From positions 39,299 through 103,298 of the forward strand of contig JANPRD010000008.1 in assembly GCA_024699715.1 (NCBI GenBank): 64,000 nucleotides of DNA, read 5' to 3'. The notes under the pieces were generated by a model, which was not told the DNA's origin, ran no database searches, and saw nothing but the letters and a program-made list of their open reading frames with translations. Source of the stretch: Candidatus Methanophagales archaeon. Its GTDB lineage: Archaea > Halobacteriota > Syntropharchaeia > Alkanophagales > Methanospirareceae. Below, in pieces: positions 1,914-27,052 of this stretch. Numbering within the stretch: the first letter of the stretch is position 1; each line of letters starts with the position of its first letter. The position numbers were made by a program, and so were the translations under genes.

Positions 1914-3548
1914 TCAGCAGCTACAGCAGCTACAACATGTCAATGGTTCCCCCCGTATTATTTTGAGGCCATCACTCACCCCTACTCTGCCATCACAATT
2001 TACATCACTTGCCCACCGACTCGCAACTGGTTCCCCCCGTATTATTTTGAGGCCATCACTCACCCCTACTCTGCCATCACCTCCCGCATCACCGCACTTA
2101 ACAAGTGTGTAGTTATTCCACGGCTCTATAAGTGGACGGTAATCCTGAGCTCCCGCACCTCCATCAATGCTGTAAGCGGAATTATTGATTCCATCGCCAT
2201 CGGTGTCGCTTCCCAAGTAATCGCTCCAGTAATTACCTGTGTAGTTGTCGTATACCTTCCCGCCGTATTTGTAACCGATGCCCCAAGGATTATCAACGGA
2301 GCAGTTCCAGCAGTTCGTCCCTGTGTTGTCGTATGCCTGTGATGTCCGTCCCGTGAAGTTAAGATTATTAGAGATGAAGTCATTCCAGAACACGCAGTTG
2401 TGAGAACTGTTGTCCATTTTCAGTCCGTAATCACCGCTATACATTATATCGTTGCCGAAAATCTTGCTCCAATTTCCCCACACATATATACCGCATTTCG
2501 TATTGTTTCGTATAGTATTATCTTCAACGGTATGGTAGAATCCCATGAGTTCAATGCCATAGGAATTGTTCACAATCGTGTTTTTTCTTATGCTAACGAA
2601 CTGCGTATCATTCAGGTATCCAGGTTTGAGTGCTCTTGGGAAGATTTCTATGCCTGATGCGATGCTATCTTGCACCGTGTTGTTTATTATATCTACATAT
2701 CTTGATTTCACGACCATTATGCCCTTGTAGTTCCCTTGAATCATGTTCTCCTCTATTGTCCCGTTAGATAAGTTACCTAAATATATACCTCTGCCACCTT
2801 CGCCACCGTAGACCTGACAATTCCTGATTGTGCAGTTCTTTATAACAAATGGGACATTTGTGTTCTCTATATGGATGCCATCGTAACCCGTAAGGTTCTC
2901 TATCGTGAGGTTCTCTATATAATAGGTTCCGCTTATATTATTAGCTAATCCTGCACTTACTAGCTCATCAAAATCACTGTCGCTCATCACGATAATCGCT
3001 CGCCCAACGATGTGCACTTCTGTCCGCTCATTGTTCCATTCTTTCAGTTCGTCCACTTGATCGTCCACATCTGCAATCACTTTAAATTCATGAGTTCCTG
3101 CAGACAAGTTCACCATGAAATTCACCACCTTGCTCTTGCTCATGTTAAGTCCGTTCACGCTTACAGTTCCGTTCAGCACATCGTCGACATACAAACTGAC
3201 ATTGAAAGAAGTTGTGATATTCGCCGTGCCGTTATTCACGATTGTTGCATTTATTATCTGGTTGGTATTCGGCTTTATGACATCTGGGAATCCGATGTCG
3301 CTGACGATGAGGTCGGGCATGGAAGCATTTTGTAGCACTAAGATTGCATCGCAAACACTGACATATCCGTCATTTCCACGACTATACCAAACTGACTGAT
3401 TACCAGTTGTGTTCAAATAGTTGAGAACATCCCATGTGTTTATCTCAAAAGTATTGCTATCAACCATGCTTGTGTTCAGTGTATTCCCATTAAATTCAGA
3501 GCAATTACTGCAAACCGGGTCGTATGCGGTCAGATGAACCATAGTCAA
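1914..3548 (-). CDS. CARDB / parallel beta-helix / dockerin-like surface protein, main part
   Basis: This is the C-terminal 544 residues of a gene that begins at 4177; the two upstream pieces are in other frames. In order: end of a DUF3344-like domain, a CARDB domain (about residues 80-180, PDLIVSDIGFPD to EWNNERTEV), a NosD-type right-handed beta-helix (about 215-400), a degraded repeat with NYWSDYLGSDTDGDGINNSAY, and a dockerin-like module of two calcium loops (DAGGDGRVGVSD and DVNCDGRVGVSD). The protein ends CCSCCSC. Many Asn-X-Ser/Thr sites suit an extracellular glycoprotein. The dockerin next to a cohesin-like gene suggests the two bind. Confidence 0.75.
   Translation of the reverse strand: MTMVHLTAYDPVCSNCSEFNGNTLNTSMVDSNTFEINTWDVLNYLNTTGNQSVWYSRGNDGYVSVCDAILVLQNASMPDLIVSDIGFPDVIKPNTNQIINATIVNNGTANITTSFNVSLYVDDVLNGTVSVNGLNMSKSKVVNFMVNLSAGTHEFKVIADVDDQVDELKEWNNERTEVHIVGRAIIVMSDSDFDELVSAGLANNISGTYYIENLTIENLTGYDGIHIENTNVPFVIKNCTIRNCQVYGGEGGRGIYLGNLSNGTIEENMIQGNYKGIMVVKSRYVDIINNTVQDSIASGIEIFPRALKPGYLNDTQFVSIRKNTIVNNSYGIELMGFYHTVEDNTIRNNTKCGIYVWGNWSKIFGNDIMYSGDYGLKMDNSSHNCVFWNDFISNNLNFTGRTSQAYDNTGTNCWNCSVDNPWGIGYKYGGKVYDNYTGNYWSDYLGSDTDGDGINNSAYSIDGGAGAQDYRPLIEPWNNYTLVKCGDAGGDGRVGVSDGLKIIRGEPVASRWASDVNCDGRVGVSDGLKIIRGEPLTCCSCCSC
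1944..2080 (-). repeat. 53-bp exact direct repeat within the dockerin-like module
   Basis: Positions 1944-1996 and 2028-2080 are identical over 53 bp, 84 bp apart. Each copy encodes the loop and helix GDGRVGVSDGLKIIRGEP. Exact DNA identity between two halves of a structural repeat indicates very recent duplication or gene conversion. Confidence 0.85.
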
Positions 3549-3719
3549 CTCCGCTATGTTCGGTCCAATTGTGACAGTGCCGTTGAAATATGTTGTATTC
3601 CTCGTTATGATGGTGTGACATAATTCAGCGCATCATGTCCATCATTTATCCAATACTGAATTAGAGGATAACTGTTATTCTCTAACACGACAACAAGAAC
3701 GATGCCATAGACTCTGCCA

Positions 3720-4013
3720 TCAATCGTTCCATTGATTTTTGATACGTTCGCTGTGTTTGTTTGTCCCTGCATTGACACGATTGGTCACATTATACCACCA
3801 CCAATATTTGCCGTGCGTGGTTGCCCAGACATTTGGATTGTTGTCATTTACGCCCTCAAGATGTAATGGACCTAGTTCGTTTCCATTGAACTTAACACTC
3901 ACCCAGCCTCGTGTATTCTCGTTGCCTCCCCATATACCACTATATAAGTATGCCTTCTGACAGTTCCAGCAGGCACATCGAAAGAACCTGAAAGAGTCGT
4001 TTGTCCGTTCCAA
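3720..4013 (-). CDS. Middle fragment of the DUF3344 domain of the 1914-4177 gene
   Basis: From about 3960 downwards this frame reads KAYLYSGIWGGNENTRGWVSVKFNGNE and YWWWYNVTNRVNAGTNK, continuing the DUF3344-type domain begun in the 4177 fragment. Its own upstream part (residues 1-18) is out-of-frame sequence, so it is not an independent gene. A further frame change near 3740, and another near 3625, are needed to reach the main part at 3548. Confidence 0.6.
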   Translation of the reverse strand: MERTNDSFRFFRCACWNCQKAYLYSGIWGGNENTRGWVSVKFNGNELGPLHLEGVNDNNPNVWATTHGKYWWWYNVTNRVNAGTNKHSERIKNQWND

Positions 4014-4177
4014 CCCACACTACCTATGAAAACAGTGCCATTCAACGTGCCACTTGACCTCGTCGTCAGTCCCCATCCATTAAATTGATAATCCGCCACC
4101 GCCACTGGTATGCTGAGAAACACTATCGCCGCAACTAATATCGCCGCTATACATCCACATCTTACCCCTTTCTCCAT
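3899..4177 (-). CDS. N-terminal fragment: signal peptide and start of DUF3344-like domain
   Basis: The start at 4177 is preceded by a purine-rich GGAGGTGGTGAAAGG ribosome-binding region. Residues 1-28 (MEKGVRCGCIAAILVAAIVF onwards) are a clear signal peptide. YQFNGWGLTTRSSGTLNGTV and GSFDVPAGTVRR follow and match the first strands of DUF3344-type archaeal surface domains; the same domain type occurs near the end of the giant divergent gene (14125-14714). The frame ends early at 3899 because of an indel near 3960. Confidence 0.65.
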   Translation of the reverse strand: MEKGVRCGCIAAILVAAIVFLSIPVAVADYQFNGWGLTTRSSGTLNGTVFIGSVGWNGQTTLSGSFDVPAGTVRRHTYIVVYGEATRIHEAG

Positions 4178-4213
4178 CCTTTCACCACCTCCCTCTGCTG
4201 TTTGCTTTTATCT

Positions 4214-4229
4214 GCGCCATCATCGGCGC
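4214..4229 (-). promoter_or_regulatory. Leader hairpin before the DUF3344/CARDB surface gene
   Basis: On the minus strand GCGCC pairs with GGCGC around loop GATGAT, 37 nt before the start codon. It matches the hairpin at 414-432 in stem sequence and position. Confidence 0.45.
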
Positions 4230-4317
4230 CCTTTCGCCCTCACGGAATATCGCACCCCGTAAAGGGCATCTTATTCCTCATACCTCCATCCGCCTCTATC
4301 TTACATCGTGCTAAAAA

Positions 4318-4360
4318 TAAATAACATTATGGAATTAAAACATGTGCTTTTTGCATATGC
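4318..4360. promoter_or_regulatory. Shared promoter block and palindrome between divergent surface genes
   Basis: The block AAATAACATTATGGAAT (4318-4334) repeats that at 558-574. The palindrome-like CATGTGCTTTTTGCATATGC (4341-4360) follows. It lies between the gene starting at 4177 (minus) and the giant gene starting at 4439 (plus), so one site could serve both. The remaining spacer (4178-4317, 4361-4438) holds only the leader hairpin and AT-rich sequence. Confidence 0.5.
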
Positions 4361-4553
4361 AATAAACACACTCATTATTTATTATATCTTGCGAAGATAG
4401 CGAAGAAGATGATGAAGAAGGGATGAGAGGAAAGGGAGATGAGAGGAAAGAAAAAAGGAAAGTGGAAGAAAGCGCAGATTTCGTGTGTCATCATACTTAC
4501 ATTACTTGTAACATCGCAGAACATCTCTTCGCCCTTTTCGCCCGTCAACAATT

Positions 4554-4562
4554 CCCCCCCCC
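4554..4562 (+). repeat. Nine-C homopolymer just after the signal peptide
   Basis: The signal-peptide frame meets a TGA at 4565 with nine Cs; with eight Cs it runs directly into the ISICNAIPPPLNISAPSIV frame that leads to the body of the protein. This is either a length error or a slippage-prone on/off switch. Confidence 0.6.
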
Positions 4563-4628
4563 ACTGAATTCAACATTTCCATCTGCAACGCCATCCCTCC
4601 TCCGCTTAACATATCCGCACCGAGTATC

Positions 4629-4937
4629 GTGTCGTTTGAACCGAAATCAATGATAGTATGTGATTATGAGGGTGAAAGAAGAACATTCAGCATATCCACT
4701 GACCAGGTTGTAGATGTGCGATGGCTTATAAATGGAACTGAGATTCAGGTGAACAAGAGCGTAATAAATGCTTCATACACAAAAAGCGCAACTGTCGGCA
4801 TATGGAATGTCTCTGCTATTGCGTTTAACAAAAACGGAACAGTAATGCATACATGGATTTGGAAAGTGTCTCAAAACTTCGCAAACCTCGCACAAACCGA
4901 ACAAACCTCACGACTCCCTCACCGACGCAACCTATAA
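4629..4937 (+). CDS. Giant surface protein, fragment 1: Ig-like domain
   Basis: The open frame actually continues upstream from about 4560 (EFNISICNAIPPPLN), so the GTG at 4629 is not the real start. VVDVRWLINGTEIQVNKSV and NGTVMHTWIWKVSQ are typical of the small beta-sandwich domain found at the start of archaeal CARDB proteins. The frame changes near 4870 into the next fragment. Confidence 0.6.
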   Translation: MSFEPKSMIVCDYEGERRTFSISTDQVVDVRWLINGTEIQVNKSVINASYTKSATVGIWNVSAIAFNKNGTVMHTWIWKVSQNFANLAQTEQTSRLPHRRNL

Positions 4938-5905
4938 CGCAAACACCAATACCTTCTTCATCTTCCCCGACGCATTCACCTCCACCTCCGCCTACCCCAA
5001 AACTTTCCCCGCAATCAAAACCTACACAAAAGAAAACACATACAAACATTACAGCACCTTTCTATATCTTCGGCTGGGTATATTACGATGATAAAGAAGA
5101 ATGTTACAATCCTATTGTAATCGTGAGCGATGGAAAAAATAAGTGGTATGCCAAGACTTATTCTAACTTCTTCCACCTTTTCATTACAAATATAAGCGAA
5201 GGAGATATTCTTGAGTTTAATGTTTCAGATGGAAGTCAATATAACATCACAGAATTCATAGTAACACATGAAGATATAGAAAAAGGAGGCATTTTCAATG
5301 TTAATCTGACGCTTAAAAGCCCAACACAGACTGACTTGGCAGTAACAAAATTATGGATGGAGCAGCCAGAAATTATAATTGGAGATGTTGTGAATGTGAC
5401 TGCGGAAATTAAGAATAGAGGAAAAAGCACATGCGCAACGACAATATTCTACGACGAAAAGAACATCTCTATATTCAAATTCTATTGGAATGTGCCCAAC
5501 TTTACAAATAAGGGAAATGACATCATAGTTCAGCCTGAAGCCCTAAAAATAAGAATACACTTCATTGAGCTGGGAATTCAGGATGGGGGTTATGTGAGAA
5601 TTTACGATAAAAAAGATGATTTGATTCATAATTTCACGGTGGATGCAGGAGATTTTAATATAACAGATTTTTGGACAAATTGGAGCGAAGGAGATGAAAT
5701 AAGAATAGAATCCTATGCAAGAAATTATCTGTATTTCATGATTGATAAATATGAGGCGATATTTGGAAATGAAACACAGAGATTAGGAAGCGGTCAGTCT
5801 TCTAACTTCACGGCGAGGTGGAATGCATCCGCATGGTTCAACGATGAGGACATTGCTTCTGGCAATCACACGATTCGTGTGCGTGTTATACCCCTTGCCA
5901 AATGA
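4853..5905 (+). CDS. Giant surface protein, fragment 2: linker, beta domain, first CARDB with CUB-like insert
   Basis: Residues 1-65 are a Pro/Ser/Thr-rich linker. Residues 68-155 form a beta domain (FYIFGWVYYDDKEECYNP, ISEGDILEFNVSDG). A CARDB domain starts at TDLAVTKLWMEQPEIIIGD and carries a CUB-like insert (ALKIRIHFIELG, DFWTNWSEGDEIRIES, IDKYEAIFGNET). The frame is lost at HTIRVRVIPLAK and resumes as NESNVENNEMSRT in another frame near 5905. Confidence 0.65.
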   Translation: MDLESVSKLRKPRTNRTNLTTPSPTQPITQTPIPSSSSPTHSPPPPPTPKLSPQSKPTQKKTHTNITAPFYIFGWVYYDDKEECYNPIVIVSDGKNKWYAKTYSNFFHLFITNISEGDILEFNVSDGSQYNITEFIVTHEDIEKGGIFNVNLTLKSPTQTDLAVTKLWMEQPEIIIGDVVNVTAEIKNRGKSTCATTIFYDEKNISIFKFYWNVPNFTNKGNDIIVQPEALKIRIHFIELGIQDGGYVRIYDKKDDLIHNFTVDAGDFNITDFWTNWSEGDEIRIESYARNYLYFMIDKYEAIFGNETQRLGSGQSSNFTARWNASAWFNDEDIASGNHTIRVRVIPLAK

Positions 5906-20551: not shown

Positions 20552-20714
20552 CTCTTCTCTCTTTGTTTCCTCTTTCTTACTTTCCTATGCTTTTCGTTTT
20601 CGCCGCCGTCGCCGAAGATGAATTAGAGGAGAAGGGTAATATTAAGGGGATGGCGTCGCCTAAGGGAGAGCAGAGCGTAGGGTAGGAGAGGAAAGGGAAG
20701 ACCTGACGCCTTTA

Positions 20715-23700
20715 ATGAGGCAGTATTTCAAGAAGAAGGAGGAGAGTGGGGACGCCATTCTGCTTTTTCAAGTCGGAGACTTTTTTGAGACATTCGGGGA
20801 GGATGCGAAGCTTGTATCTCGTGAGTTAGGGATTGTGCTGACTGCTCGTTCTTGTGGAGAAGAGAAGATACCGATGGCGGGATTTCCGTGCCATTCAGCG
20901 ATGAATTACATAAAGAGGCTCATAAATCGTGGATACAAAGTGGCGATTTGTGAGCAAGTAGAGAAGCCTTCGCCGAAGAAGAAAGTGGTGCGAAGAGAAA
21001 TAACGAGGACAATAACGCCCGGAACGGTGCTTGAGGACGAACTTTTGGATGTTACGAACAACTTTTTCATGGGAGTTTTCGGCGAAAAAAGTGATGAAAG
21101 CACAAAGAAAAGTGAAAAATACGGCGTCACATTCATAGACATTTCAACAGGCGAAATGTTCATCACTGAGACCGACAGAGAGAATCTGCTCTCGGAGATA
21201 TTGAAGTTTTCGCCTGTGGAGTGTTTGATGCCGAGAGGGTTTGATGAGGAATTGAAGAAGGAGATAGGGATTTATTGCTTCATAAATGAGGTTGAAGAGG
21301 AGTTTTTTGATGAAGTTGAGGCGGATTTAGAGTTAAAAAGATTGCATATAGATATTAATTCAGCATTAAGCAAGCGAGTAGTGGGAGCAACACTCAAATA
21401 TTTGAGGAAGATTTGCAGAAGAGACATCTCGCATGTCCGAGTTAAGAGATATGAACCGCAGGAGTTTATGATGATTGACGCAACTTCTTTCAAAAATCTT
21501 GAGATTTTTGAGAGTTTGCGCATGAGAGGAGAGGAAGGAACACTTTTGAGCGTCCTTGACAGGACAGCGACGCCTATGGGGCGAAGGAAGTTGAGGGAGT
21601 GGCTAAGGAAGCCCCTTAAGGATGTCTCGCAGATAAATGAGCGTCTTGATGCTGTTGAGGAGCTCTTCGCAAACACATTCTTGAGGCATGAATTGATGGA
21701 GCGACTGCAACGCTTCTACGACATTGAGCGTCTCGCTTCAAGGATTGAACTTGCGCTTGCGAATGCTCGTGATTTGATCGCACTGCGTCAGAGTTTGGAT
21801 GCGGTCTCTGAGGTGAAAGAGCTGCTGAATTCCTGTAAAAGAGGGAGACTGCGAGAGATTTCAAAAGAATTGGACGATGTGAGCGAAGCAAAGGAAATTA
21901 TAAAGAGAGCAATAGTGGAAGACCCGCCCGCACTTTTGAAGGAAGGAGGCATCATAAAGGAGGGATTTGATGCTGAATTGGACGCACTGCGGAATGCAAA
22001 GCGAGAAGAAGAGGCGTGGATAAGGGAATTTGAGCGGAAGGAAAGAGAAAGAACGGGCATAAACTCGCTCAAAGTCGGCTATAATGAGATTATTGGATAT
22101 TACATTGAGGTTACGAAGCCGAATTTAAGGCATGTTCCTGCGGAATACAGGCGGAAGCAGACGCTGAAGAATGTGGAGCGCTTCACAGTAGAGGAACTTG
22201 AGCGACGCTCTGAACGCATATTGAGCGCAGAAGAAAGGATAAAAGCGCTGGAATACGATATTTTCTGTCGTGTTCGTGAAGAAGTCGCAAAATACACGAG
22301 AAGAATTCAAAGGACGGCGAATGCAATAGCGGAATTAGATGTTTTAGTATCTTTTGCGGAGGTTTCAGCGATAAATGGATATGTTAAACCCAAAGTTTAT
22401 GAGGGAGAAGATGTTGAAATAGAGGAAGGACGGCATCCAGTTGTTGAACTTTCTGTTGATTTTGTGCCTAATGATGTGAAGATAAGCGGTAGAGAGAGAT
22501 TTTTGATAATTACGGGACCGAACGCATCAGGAAAATCAACTTATGTGAGGATGGTCGCTTTGATTGCGATAATGGCACAAATAGGATGCTTTGTTCCCGC
22601 AAAAGCGGCGAAAATATGCGTTTTTGATAGGATTTTGACGAGAATAGGCTCTGTTGACGAGATTTCAAGTGGGATAAGCTCTTTCATGGTTGAGATAATG
22701 GAGATGTTGAAGATAATAAGGAACGCAACAGAGCGAAGTTTAGTCCTTTTGGATGAGGTTGGGAAGGGAACAAGCACTTATGATGGGATAAGCATCGCAT
22801 GGGCATTCTCAAAATACATGTGCGGCGTGGGCTGCAAAGTGCTTTTCGCCACGCATTTTCACGAGCTCACGGAGCTTGAGCGGGAGGTTGAGGGCGTCGT
22901 AAATTACCATTTTGATGCGGTTGAAGGCGGAAGCGACGGCGAGGGTGAAGGAAGCGGTGCATTGAAGTTCGTCAGGAAACTGAAGCGTGGGCGTGCAACA
23001 AAAAGCTACGGCATAAAGGTGGCTGAGATGCTGAACATGCCCGAAGTCATCATTAAGGAGGCAGAGAAGAAGTTGAAAGAGCTTGAGCGGAGAGCGAAGG
23101 AAGCGGAGGAGAGGGAGAAGGATGTGGTGGAGACGGAGAAGAGAAACGGAGAGGGGAGCGAAGTCGCAACTTGCGAAGTCGCAAAAAGAAGTGCTTTGAG
23201 TGTGCGTGTCAAGCGTGACTTTGAAAATCGGCAAGCGTTTATTGAAGAATTGATAGGGCAATTGGAGAAATTATATGAAAAGTGGAGGAGTGAGACAGTT
23301 TTGAGGGCGATTCGTGAGTTAAGGATGCTGATTATTGAGCGAAATGCGGAATTCAAGCTGAGGAGGAAGTGCGGAGAGAGCATAGAACACTTCATTACGA
23401 AGAATGTGCTTTTCAATTCGCTGAAAAATGTCCGCTCTTACTTCGTTGAAGGCAAGAGAAGCATCATAAGCAGATACGGATACCGCCCTGATGTGATTGC
23501 ACTCACAGATGAAGAGCTCGTAATAATTGAGGCGGAGAGGAGTTTGAAAGGCTTGAAGAGAAAATTGAAGTCGTTGGAGAACGCTTTGGAGAATTTGAGG
23601 AAGCACGGTTTTGCGGATGCTGGCGTCGTAGGTGAAAGTGCCGTGAATGCTGGGAAGGACCCGATATTGAAGTTTCTGAGAGCGGGGAAATTCAAGTTAA

Positions 23701-23828
23701 TGGTAGGTGTCCCATCTGCTCGTGTTAAGCGTGAGGATGTGGTGGAATTGAAGGAAAAATGCTCAAAATTGCATTTGAAATTGGAGATATATAAGGTAAA
23801 AGAGGGCGGTGAGATTGAAAAGATATAA
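20715..23828 (+). CDS. mutS: DNA mismatch repair protein MutS with extra C-terminal domain
   Basis: 1,037 residues. The mismatch-binding start has the Phe-X-Glu motif (VGDFFETFGEDA, about residues 20-30). Connector, lever and clamp regions follow. The ATPase has ITGPNASGKSTY (about 597-610), LVLLDEVGKGTSTYDG (about 674-689) and FATHFHELTELE (about 710). The MutS part ends near 790. About 240 further residues hold a charged coiled coil (790-830) and a compact domain with GYRPDVIAL (about 919-927) and LVIIEAERS (about 932-940), resembling the PD and (D/E)-X-K/E strands of restriction-type nucleases. Usual archaeal MutS is 800-850 residues. No mutL is seen nearby. The start has a GAGGAAAGGGAAG ribosome site. 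Confidence 0.92.
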   Translation: MRQYFKKKEESGDAILLFQVGDFFETFGEDAKLVSRELGIVLTARSCGEEKIPMAGFPCHSAMNYIKRLINRGYKVAICEQVEKPSPKKKVVRREITRTITPGTVLEDELLDVTNNFFMGVFGEKSDESTKKSEKYGVTFIDISTGEMFITETDRENLLSEILKFSPVECLMPRGFDEELKKEIGIYCFINEVEEEFFDEVEADLELKRLHIDINSALSKRVVGATLKYLRKICRRDISHVRVKRYEPQEFMMIDATSFKNLEIFESLRMRGEEGTLLSVLDRTATPMGRRKLREWLRKPLKDVSQINERLDAVEELFANTFLRHELMERLQRFYDIERLASRIELALANARDLIALRQSLDAVSEVKELLNSCKRGRLREISKELDDVSEAKEIIKRAIVEDPPALLKEGGIIKEGFDAELDALRNAKREEEAWIREFERKERERTGINSLKVGYNEIIGYYIEVTKPNLRHVPAEYRRKQTLKNVERFTVEELERRSERILSAEERIKALEYDIFCRVREEVAKYTRRIQRTANAIAELDVLVSFAEVSAINGYVKPKVYEGEDVEIEEGRHPVVELSVDFVPNDVKISGRERFLIITGPNASGKSTYVRMVALIAIMAQIGCFVPAKAAKICVFDRILTRIGSVDEISSGISSFMVEIMEMLKIIRNATERSLVLLDEVGKGTSTYDGISIAWAFSKYMCGVGCKVLFATHFHELTELEREVEGVVNYHFDAVEGGSDGEGEGSGALKFVRKLKRGRATKSYGIKVAEMLNMPEVIIKEAEKKLKELERRAKEAEEREKDVVETEKRNGEGSEVATCEVAKRSALSVRVKRDFENRQAFIEELIGQLEKLYEKWRSETVLRAIRELRMLIIERNAEFKLRRKCGESIEHFITKNVLFNSLKNVRSYFVEGKRSIISRYGYRPDVIALTDEELVIIEAERSLKGLKRKLKSLENALENLRKHGFADAGVVGESAVNAGKDPILKFLRAGKFKLMVGVPSARVKREDVVELKEKCSKLHLKLEIYKVKEGGEIEKI

Positions 23829-24920: not shown

Positions 24921-25631
24921 ATGCATGTGAAAATTTACGGGGAGAGCGGGGGAATAGTTTTGGAACTGCCTCTTACCAAACCCACAGGTAAAGTTAGAGT
25001 TAAAAGGCGAACAAAGAACTTTGGTGTCCCTGTTGCGACGAGAAGGGAGGCACTTTTGGAGAAAGATTATGTAGAGTGGCAGATTTCTTATGCAACAGAA
25101 GAAGCATCTGAGACTGCAGTGGAGAGTGTCAGACTTTCTGACGGCAGAATAGGATTTGAGTTGGCGAAAATATTGTGCGAGGCGAAAAGACTTGGGATTT
25201 TAAGAGAAAGAGATTTCAAAGAGATGAAGGAATTCGCTAAAAGTGTGAGAGATAAAACAATTGAGGAGAAAGAGGAGATTGTGAGGATAAGAGTAGGCGA
25301 AGAGGTAGCAGGCGGTTTCGTGAGATTTGAAGAGAAAGTGCCAGTATTCGTGAAAGAAGCAGATAAATATTTCATAGAAATAGTCTTAAGGCATAAACAG
25401 AAGGCAGTTGGATTCCAATCAATGGTTTATCTTTGCATTTGGCTGAAAAATATGGAAAATTCGGAAGGTAATCCGCCAATAGGAAGACCAGCAAGGAGGA
25501 ATGAACATGTGAAATTCAAAATAACTGATGGAAATATTATAAAGGATGTTGTCAAAGCATTCGCAATCGCTTCGAGAAAGCATAATCAGGACATCTCAGA
25601 GATTGTTGAACAGGTGCTTGAGAAATGCTGA
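24921..25631 (+). CDS. Unknown protein overlapping a DNA methylase (restriction-partner candidate)
   Basis: 236 residues, family not recognised. Its stop overlaps the methylase start (25625), so the two are translationally coupled. The middle is helical and charged; EEVAGGFVRFEEKVPVF and KYFIEIVLRHKQKAVGFQSM form a strand-rich segment, and the end (VKFKITDGNIIKDVVKAFAI) looks like a separate small domain. Position suggests a restriction or specificity partner, but no clear nuclease motif is visible. The ATG at 24921 lies in AAAAAAATGCATG. Confidence 0.6.
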   Translation: MHVKIYGESGGIVLELPLTKPTGKVRVKRRTKNFGVPVATRREALLEKDYVEWQISYATEEASETAVESVRLSDGRIGFELAKILCEAKRLGILRERDFKEMKEFAKSVRDKTIEEKEEIVRIRVGEEVAGGFVRFEEKVPVFVKEADKYFIEIVLRHKQKAVGFQSMVYLCIWLKNMENSEGNPPIGRPARRNEHVKFKITDGNIIKDVVKAFAIASRKHNQDISEIVEQVLEKC

Positions 25632-27052
25632 AGTCCGCATCTTCGCAGGAGGAGAAGCATTTCAAGCGAAAGGAGAAGATATTAGGTCAGTTTTACACGC
25701 CTAAGGCACTCGCAAATTTCATAGTTAAGTCTTGTGCGAAGTTAGTTCATGAGAGAAATCTTCTGATTGACCCTGCTTGTGGTGATGGTGTATTTTTAGA
25801 GGCGGGAATTTCGGCAGGATTCAAGGAAGTTATAGGTATTGATATTGATTCTACTGTCATAAAACACACGAAATCTGCGCTGAAAGGCAAAATCGTTGTG
25901 GCGAATGGCTTGGAAATCACAGGCTACGAAGAGAAGTGCGATGCAGTTGTCGGGAATCCTCCATTTTCAGCGAAATATGGAAGAATCACTGACAGGAAAA
26001 TATTAAATAAATTCTCGCTCGGACGCCGAAAGTCATCGCAAGCAATAGAAGTTTTATTCTTAGAAAAATTTGTTCAGCTCGCAAAAGAAGGCGGAATTAT
26101 TGGAATTATTCTGCCTTTTGGCATCTTTGCGAACACACAACTCGCCTATATCCGAAGATTTATGTTCGAAAATTTGAAAATTCTGGCAGTTATTTCGTTA
26201 CCGAGAGGCATTTTTCCGAAAACAACGGCGAAAACATGCGTTCTGCTGGCGATGAAAAACAAGGAAGGGCATAGCGGTCCGATTCTTTTCGCAAAGGTCG
26301 GAAAATTGCGGGAACTTGAGCATTTGGAGCGAAGAGGGAAGTTTGTAGATGTGGAAAATGATATTCTTTATCCTGAATATTACCTTGACAGGATAGAAAT
26401 TAGAGCGGAAAGGAGGCTTGAAGATGTCGTAACAATAAGAAGTGGAGCAACAGAATACGGAGATGCGAGATTTTTCGTGAAGGAAGGCATTCCTTTCATA
26501 TCTGCGAAGGTCATTACGCCTCTTGGAATAGATTTCAGCAGGGAGCGGAAGTTCATTAAGCCGAATTCAATAATGGACAAGGAATCGGCAAGGGTGAATA
26601 TTGGCGATGTTCTGTTCGTCAGAGTGGGTGTTGGATGCATAGGAAGGGTCGCAGTTGTGACAAACGAGGCGGAGAAAGGCATTGCTGACGACTGGATTTA
26701 TATTATGCGTGTGAAAAACGAGCAAATATCGCCATATTATATAGCATTCTACATGCAAACTGACATCATTCAAAAAGAAATAAGGCGATTGGCTCGTGGT
26801 GTCGGAACAACAACGATTCCAAAGCGGCTTTTATACGAAATTCCATTCTTTTGGGATGAGAAATTGAATGCAGAGGCGGAGAAAATTTACTTGCGTATGG
26901 TGGAACTTCGCAAGAGTGGTAGAATAAGAGAGGCTGAGCGAGTGAGAAAGGAATTCAAGAGCAGAATAGAAGCATTAATCGCAAGTGAAAGTGCAAGAGC
27001 GGGAAATGCTGAAAGAGAGAGTGAAGGAGGCAACTGTGGAAATTCTGCGTAA
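25625..27052 (+). CDS. N6-adenine DNA methylase fused to a target-recognition (HsdS-like) domain
   Basis: 475 residues. N-terminal methylase of the HsdM type: GQFYTPKALANFIVKSCAKL, motif I DPACGDGVFLE, motif IV GNPPF (catalytic), LPFGIFANTQL. From about residue 255 a type I specificity-like target-recognition domain follows (RLEDVVTIRSGATEYGD, FISAKVITPLGIDF, RLARGVGTTTIPKRLLYEIP). This is the layout of the methylase-specificity half of type IIG enzymes but without an obvious N-terminal nuclease. It overlaps the unknown gene upstream and the fumarase gene downstream. Confidence 0.88.
   Translation: MLKSASSQEEKHFKRKEKILGQFYTPKALANFIVKSCAKLVHERNLLIDPACGDGVFLEAGISAGFKEVIGIDIDSTVIKHTKSALKGKIVVANGLEITGYEEKCDAVVGNPPFSAKYGRITDRKILNKFSLGRRKSSQAIEVLFLEKFVQLAKEGGIIGIILPFGIFANTQLAYIRRFMFENLKILAVISLPRGIFPKTTAKTCVLLAMKNKEGHSGPILFAKVGKLRELEHLERRGKFVDVENDILYPEYYLDRIEIRAERRLEDVVTIRSGATEYGDARFFVKEGIPFISAKVITPLGIDFSRERKFIKPNSIMDKESARVNIGDVLFVRVGVGCIGRVAVVTNEAEKGIADDWIYIMRVKNEQISPYYIAFYMQTDIIQKEIRRLARGVGTTTIPKRLLYEIPFFWDEKLNAEAEKIYLRMVELRKSGRIREAERVRKEFKSRIEALIASESARAGNAERESEGGNCGNSA

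Follow-up and report, generated by a model that had tools for sequence, protein, structure and literature searches.

Within a 64,000-nucleotide stretch of a Candidatus Methanophagales archaeon genome (the window, throughout this text), we identified a gene whose product is a complete MutS1 protein that continues into a tail with a predicted nuclease fold. The explanation we favour, at a probability of about 0.6, is that this is a MutS1 with a NucS-like, metal-dependent nuclease tail, likely cutting at the mismatch found by MutS in place of MutL. Because a relative of the tail is encoded by a gene that overlaps mutS in archaea without detectable MutL, it would likely make the cut that MutL makes in repair. 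It looks like a so far unrecognised pairing of MutS with a NucS-like nuclease that does the job of MutL, in one case encoded by overlapping genes and in the other fused into a single protein.

The MutS equivalog model NF003810 scores 934 bits over residues 1-791 of the product, against a cut-off of 480, and each of the five Pfam MutS domains likewise exceeds its cut-off. The protein has the FxE motif, whose role in mismatch recognition is treated in section 8 of PMC12292046, and intact ATPase motifs, with LLDEVGKGTS (Walker B) from residue 678 and ATHFHEL from residue 712 following Walker A. Domains I-V, FxE and the ATPase motifs together identify it as a complete MutS1, as a sequence-only reading of this stretch had proposed. 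Its nearest database protein is P0002, the MutS of Candidatus Methanospirare jalkutatii (97% identity over the whole length), a member of ANME-1c recovered from hydrothermal samples (PMC9894754). The N-terminus of P0002 is 33 residues longer, and small indels relative to P0002 at window positions 20619-20714 shift the frame there, so the true start of the fusion may lie a little 5′ of 20715.

The extension past the usual MutS end, also claimed from the sequence, is real: P0002 carries the same tail (98% identity over residues 840-1037, 20 member sequences), and the fused architecture occurs in a second genus as well (L039, P0004). None of the three fused proteins has the TPxxAL pattern of the usual MutS C-terminal helix, and the sequence beyond about residue 800 is not that of a MutS; nine other MutS compared keep the helix, P0050 in a variant form that the pattern missed and that was recognised by eye. 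To find relatives, a profile of two tail sequences was searched against 392 genomes of the phylum with a threshold of E 0.001. The domain is present in 11 of them, as two MutS fusions and nine stand-alone open reading frames (ORFs); three further genomes, which gave E 0.002-0.009 in a separate search, with frames of 783-1085 residues, were excluded from the counts. The carriers of the fusion are two ANME-1c species, that of the window and Candidatus Methanoxibalbensis ujae (G033), which belongs to another genus and is called the sister species below. P0003 is 99% identical to the end of the sister-species protein and was for that reason excluded as a further relative. A protein search with residues 840-1037 returned P0002 only and missed P0004, which a full-length search found, so absence from such protein searches is weak evidence.

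The nine stand-alone carriers (E 3e-5 to 3e-14) all fall in one family (f10), which we take to be Archaeoglobaceae since a database entry named Ferroglobus sp. matches one of its MutS proteins at 100% identity; Ferroglobus placidus is placed in Archaeoglobales (PMC3236036). At all eight loci measured, the nuclease gene lies directly 3′ of mutS on the same strand, overlaps the 3′ end of mutS by 22 or 25 nt and encodes a protein of 162-178 residues. At the ninth (G286, L075), mutS likewise runs into the start of the nuclease gene. Neighbours beyond the pair vary among three genera (six loci), and the MutS of this family keeps its own C-terminal helix beside the separate nuclease gene.

We obtained AlphaFold2 models for the tails of two orthologues, 55% identical over the tail, from input alignments A2 and A3, which included a row for P0003. 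Both show an alpha-beta-beta-beta-alpha-beta core, as in PD-(D/E)XK nucleases, with the same order of elements. GYRPDVIAL falls on predicted strand 2 and LVIIEAERS on predicted strand 3, both as described from the sequence, while LMVGVPSA and LHLKLEIYKV lie on later predicted strands. When the models were compared with known structures (Foldseek/VIA), the top PDB matches of the orthologue's tail were the archaeal mismatch endonuclease EndoMS/NucS, and the tail models also matched several nucleases of the PD-(D/E)XK fold. The tail is thus predicted to have a PD-(D/E)XK-type nuclease fold, and no non-nuclease fold came out of the prediction. In profile comparisons, the window's tail reached 19.0 bits against AHJR-like (cut-off 26.1), one stand-alone relative exceeded the Pfam PDDEXK_10 cut-off (21.9 vs 21.2 bits), and among the ten members weak matches (E up to 1) were found to AHJR-like in eight and to PDDEXK_10 in six. 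The fusion locus has no NucS_C (PF01939) match above cut-off, the sole match of the window's genome being elsewhere and below it. No Pfam model of HNH or GIY-YIG nucleases matched the fusion protein at E up to 10, scans of the tail with NCBIfam, PADLOC and PHROGs gave nothing convincing, and an Rfam scan of the window gave no match. Sequence searches of the PDB returned chance matches only (tail alone, 2 rows, best E 0.085; alignment A1, 4 rows, best 0.66; alignment A4, 5 rows, best 0.1). Among BFVD structures none matched at E ≤0.001, the top rows (probability 0.99-1.00) being mostly unnamed phage proteins and one named DNA repair protein, and 85 and 10 pattern matches in viral contigs included no relative.

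We aligned the two fusions with eight stand-alone proteins (A4; 20-55% identity to the window's tail). Of the 154 columns without gaps, 16 hold the same residue in all ten: L850, A865, E888, H892, L899, E912, S919, G922, R924, P925, D926, E939, E941, K950, P983 and E1024. In the resulting pattern, RPD is followed after 12 residues by E-x-E. The sequence-only reading had put the catalytic Asp at 922 and the Glu near 936, positions that we correct to D926, E939 and E941. Its proposal of a nuclease fold gains support from the structure prediction, from the conservation of Asp and Glu down to 20% identity and from the stand-alone relatives that overlap mutS; these acidic residues, whose loss across orthologues would have spoken against it, are kept in all ten sequences. 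It had also noticed Glu in place of the usual catalytic Lys, and this holds in 10/10 sequences, which is why we call the tail PD-(D/E)XK-like and not a canonical member of the superfamily. The catalytic Lys of such nucleases can move, and BamHI reportedly has a Glu at the usual Lys position. In Pyrococcus abyssi NucS the residues of the RecB-like motif are E127, D160, E174 and K176 (review, PMC7343888). Alignment offsets of 69 and 70 map E939 to 174, E941 to 176 and D926 to 161, by arithmetic on range ends and not by superposition; on this arithmetic the D and E of the NucS catalytic D, E and K fit, and K is replaced by E.

The replaced Lys would also suit a tail that keeps the nuclease fold without catalysis, as a DNA-binding or assembly module that takes the place of the MutS C-terminal helix while another enzyme cuts, and the Mrr_cat-like extension of Cyanophora paradoxa MutS1 is thought to be inactive (PMC12292046). 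We consider this rather unlikely, as none of the ten sequences, down to 20% identity, has lost the Asp or either Glu, whereas the Cyanophora motif is broken, and the Archaeoglobaceae MutS has its own C-terminal helix, yet the nuclease gene adjoins it. It is also conceivable that the substrate is branched DNA or recombination intermediates and not replication mismatches, MutS delivering a junction-cutting nuclease that blocks or resolves recombination of unlike sequences. A match to Hjc from the sister genus, a weak one at E 0.085, points that way, but a complete MutS1 domain I with FxE fits base mismatches, and the closest folds of the orthologue are mismatch endonucleases, making this explanation improbable. 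That an ordinary MutS was joined to the tail by chance, through misassembly or a frameshift, is hardly credible: the genome is a draft (80% complete, 5.9% estimated contamination) with indels beside the start codon, but independent genomes contradict the idea, with the same architecture in P0002 and in another genus, a conserved domain and stand-alone relatives.

A MutS1 that cuts through its NucS-like tail in place of MutL has to be weighed against what the carrier genomes hold. No MutL C-terminal domain was found in any of the 55 genomes of the Archaeoglobaceae-type family, 40 of them of high quality and all nine carriers included; the same model (MutL_C) found matches in 11 of 14 control genomes. 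In the sister species the standard mutS is decayed, its three stretches (51-66% identity to P0061) each containing stops, and a search of the genome, which is 89% complete, gave no match to MutL. The gtrA-gyrB pair, which in the window's genome adjoins mutL at a place that may be ancestral, lies well inside a contig without an adjoining mutL in the sister. The GDPD gene that adjoins mutL had no match in the sister genome, in a search made without a control. M. ujae has likely lost mutL; given the completeness of its genome and the frequency of missing MutL_C matches in the order (below), this loss is likely and not proven, and MutL may have been missed. No NucS_C match above cut-off was found in the window's or the sister genome, in a search over genomes of the order. 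Some PF01939 matches above cut-off in the order do not resemble NucS. The best of these, in G007 (L045:1489-2769, minus strand), lies in a 426-aa coiled-coil-like protein, and NucS_C matches of a similar level occur in several of the order's genomes.

Several observations weigh against the favoured reading. The window's genome has a 615-residue MutL on another contig carrying DQHAAAERINYE, which we take to be an endonuclease-type motif. Besides the fusion, that genome holds a standard mutS (contig C7, L034:2981-5621), frameshifted into two overlapping frames and intact in the same-species P0061 (877 aa, 18 members), so that the split is either a strain difference or an assembly error. The case for action without MutL rests on the sister species and the Archaeoglobaceae, outside the window's genome. 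Within the order, MutL_C has no match in 11 of the 53 genomes and is present in 15/15 high-quality ones. To these we add the Glu at the usual Lys position in every sequence. The window's own tail model had no Foldseek match at E ≤0.001, yeast acetyl-CoA carboxylase ties for first in its VIA list, and every VIA Z is below 8. That the domain cuts, that mismatch binding triggers cutting and that MutL is replaced are all steps that we infer. Taken as a whole, the sequence-only reading is borne out in part, and its idea of a self-contained repair enzyme reaches beyond the findings: a recognition part and a nuclease-like part are joined in one chain, but the usual Lys is replaced and the host genome has both a MutL and a standard mutS. 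Among related archaea, the fusion is present in a second ANME-1c species. Ten of the 11 genomes that carry the domain gave no MutL; the eleventh, that of the window, keeps MutL and a separate standard mutS.

In the mechanism we propose, recognition of the mismatch would fall to a MutS dimer, by way of FxE and its ATPase, as the intact motifs suggest, and the two C-terminal domains of the dimer would hold metal and cut by means of D926, E939 and E941. The cut would probably pass through both strands, as with EndoMS/NucS; this is the least certain step and is favoured by analogy with NucS, which cleaves double-stranded DNA carrying a mismatch (PMC8228993). Cutting of both strands would lead to repair via recombination and make a strand mark unnecessary. 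The Archaeoglobaceae-type archaea would do this with two overlapping genes, and ANME-1c with a single polypeptide that lacks the helix normally found at the MutS C-terminus. MutS-MutL and NucS are described as mutually exclusive systems with few exceptions (review, PMC8228993). On whether there is a third start to mismatch repair besides these two, with a NucS-type nuclease linked straight to MutS, by overlapping genes in MutL-less Archaeoglobaceae and in one chain in ANME-1c, we are evenly divided; the sister species, without a standard MutS and apparently without MutL, would then rely on the single chain alone. If true, MutS with a NucS-like nuclease and no MutL would bridge the two repair systems and explain how MutS works in archaea without MutL, and the single-chain enzyme may serve as a mismatch-cutting tool, probably a heat-stable one. 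In the open-access literature, judged mostly from titles and abstracts, we found no paper on a mutS-linked NucS-like archaeal gene, and a term search of the main text of the ANME-1c genome paper (PMC9894754) found no MutS, MutL or mismatch.

The arrangement shares with EndoMS/NucS the predicted nuclease core, the Asp and first Glu positions (by range arithmetic) and a mismatch-repair setting without MutL. It differs in that the mismatch is recognised by the N-terminal domain of NucS there and by MutS here, in the Glu that replaces the catalytic Lys and in not reaching the NucS_C cut-off. The closest precedent is Cyanophora paradoxa MutS1, likewise a MutS1 with a C-terminal restriction-nuclease-like extension (Mrr_cat-like, with a broken motif; PMC12292046). 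In that case, reported from a single species, a key residue is changed to Arg and the carboxylate spacing is altered, whereas the domain described here keeps D, E and E in all ten sequences and also has an operon form. MutS proteins bearing their own nuclease are also known as HNH fusions in MutS7 and octocoral mtMutS, for which self-contained repair was proposed (PMC3166940), and as a GIY-YIG fusion in plant MSH1 (PMC12292046); these have other nuclease folds and are not archaeal, and the HNH case has a MutS7 and not a MutS1 core. Standard MutS-MutL repair shares the MutS1 recognition and ATPase module, but the likely incision partner here is not MutL, with MutL_C absent from 55/55 Archaeoglobaceae-type genomes.

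Between the two fusions, Nei-Gojobori (NG86) dN/dS (nonsynonymous/synonymous divergence) was 0.20/2.93 for the MutS core, 0.85/1.21 for the linker (residues 801-858), 0.33/1.84 for residues 887-1037 and 0.18/2.48 for 887-950; as dS is near saturation, only the contrast between linker and domain is informative. In a tree of 74 MutS cores, built by a quick method with SH-aLRT support only, the three fused MutS cluster together (100). Their clade joins a set of 30 short archaeal MutS (99), some of them carrying the names Methanocaldococcus and Ferroglobus, and is separate from the eleven standard MutS of ANME-1. The likeliest course is that an ANME-1c ancestor carried an Archaeoglobaceae-type mutS-nuclease pair beside its standard mutS, and that the overlapping genes became one chain in ANME-1c, an order of events that we infer.

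Table 1. Position of the fusion gene and its parts in the window, and of the decayed mutS of the sister species
Feature	Position	Strand	Remarks
mutS-nuclease fusion ORF	20715-23828	+	1037 aa, internal stops 0
MutS1 part, residues 1-800, domains I-V	20715..23114	+	NF003810 and five Pfam MutS domains
FxE mismatch-recognition motif, F23-F24-E25	20781..20789	+	GDFFE from residue 21
Walker A GPNASGKST, residues 601-609	22515..22541	+	ATPase motif
Fast-changing linker, residues 801-834	23115..23216	+	dN/dS 0.85/1.21 for 801-858; MutS C-terminal helix motif absent
Helical hairpin before nuclease-like core, residues 835-880	23217..23354	+	model helices 2-23 and 26-43; aligns with N-terminus of stand-alone proteins (A4)
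Predicted NucS-like, PD-(D/E)XK-type core, residues 887-1037	23373..23825	+	two AlphaFold2 models, Foldseek/VIA matches
E888 and H892	23376..23390	+	invariant in 10/10 sequences
RPD 924-926, predicted metal-binding D926	23484..23492	+	invariant in 10/10 sequences
E-x-E, E939 and E941	23529..23537	+	both invariant in 10/10; E941 at usual Lys position
K950, sole invariant Lys	23562..23564	+	helix after strand 3 (model helix 110-131)
Decayed standard mutS, Ca. Methanoxibalbensis ujae	L068, about 3340-4960 (G033 contig C67)		

Other genes were noticed along the way. At 24921-27052 on the plus strand, the window holds an R.Pab1-type restriction enzyme gene (46.3 bits, cut-off 25) and, 3′ of it with a small overlap, an N6-adenine methylase gene that matches a specificity domain weakly; together they make a compact restriction-modification pair. 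A link between the fusion and this pair was considered and dropped, since the sister locus has other neighbours. At one Archaeoglobaceae-type locus (L085:7444-8940), two opposite-strand frames of 166 and 330 aa, absent in L083, lie between the nuclease gene and ribosomal genes; the larger has an ATP-binding-like start, and the two are possibly an inserted defence-like pair. Finally, the ANME-1 relative G007 has a 1385-residue MutS frame (L036:2169-6326) in which an insert of about 440 residues interrupts the MutS match at Walker A; the insert begins with Cys and ends with His-Asn, and looks like an intein.
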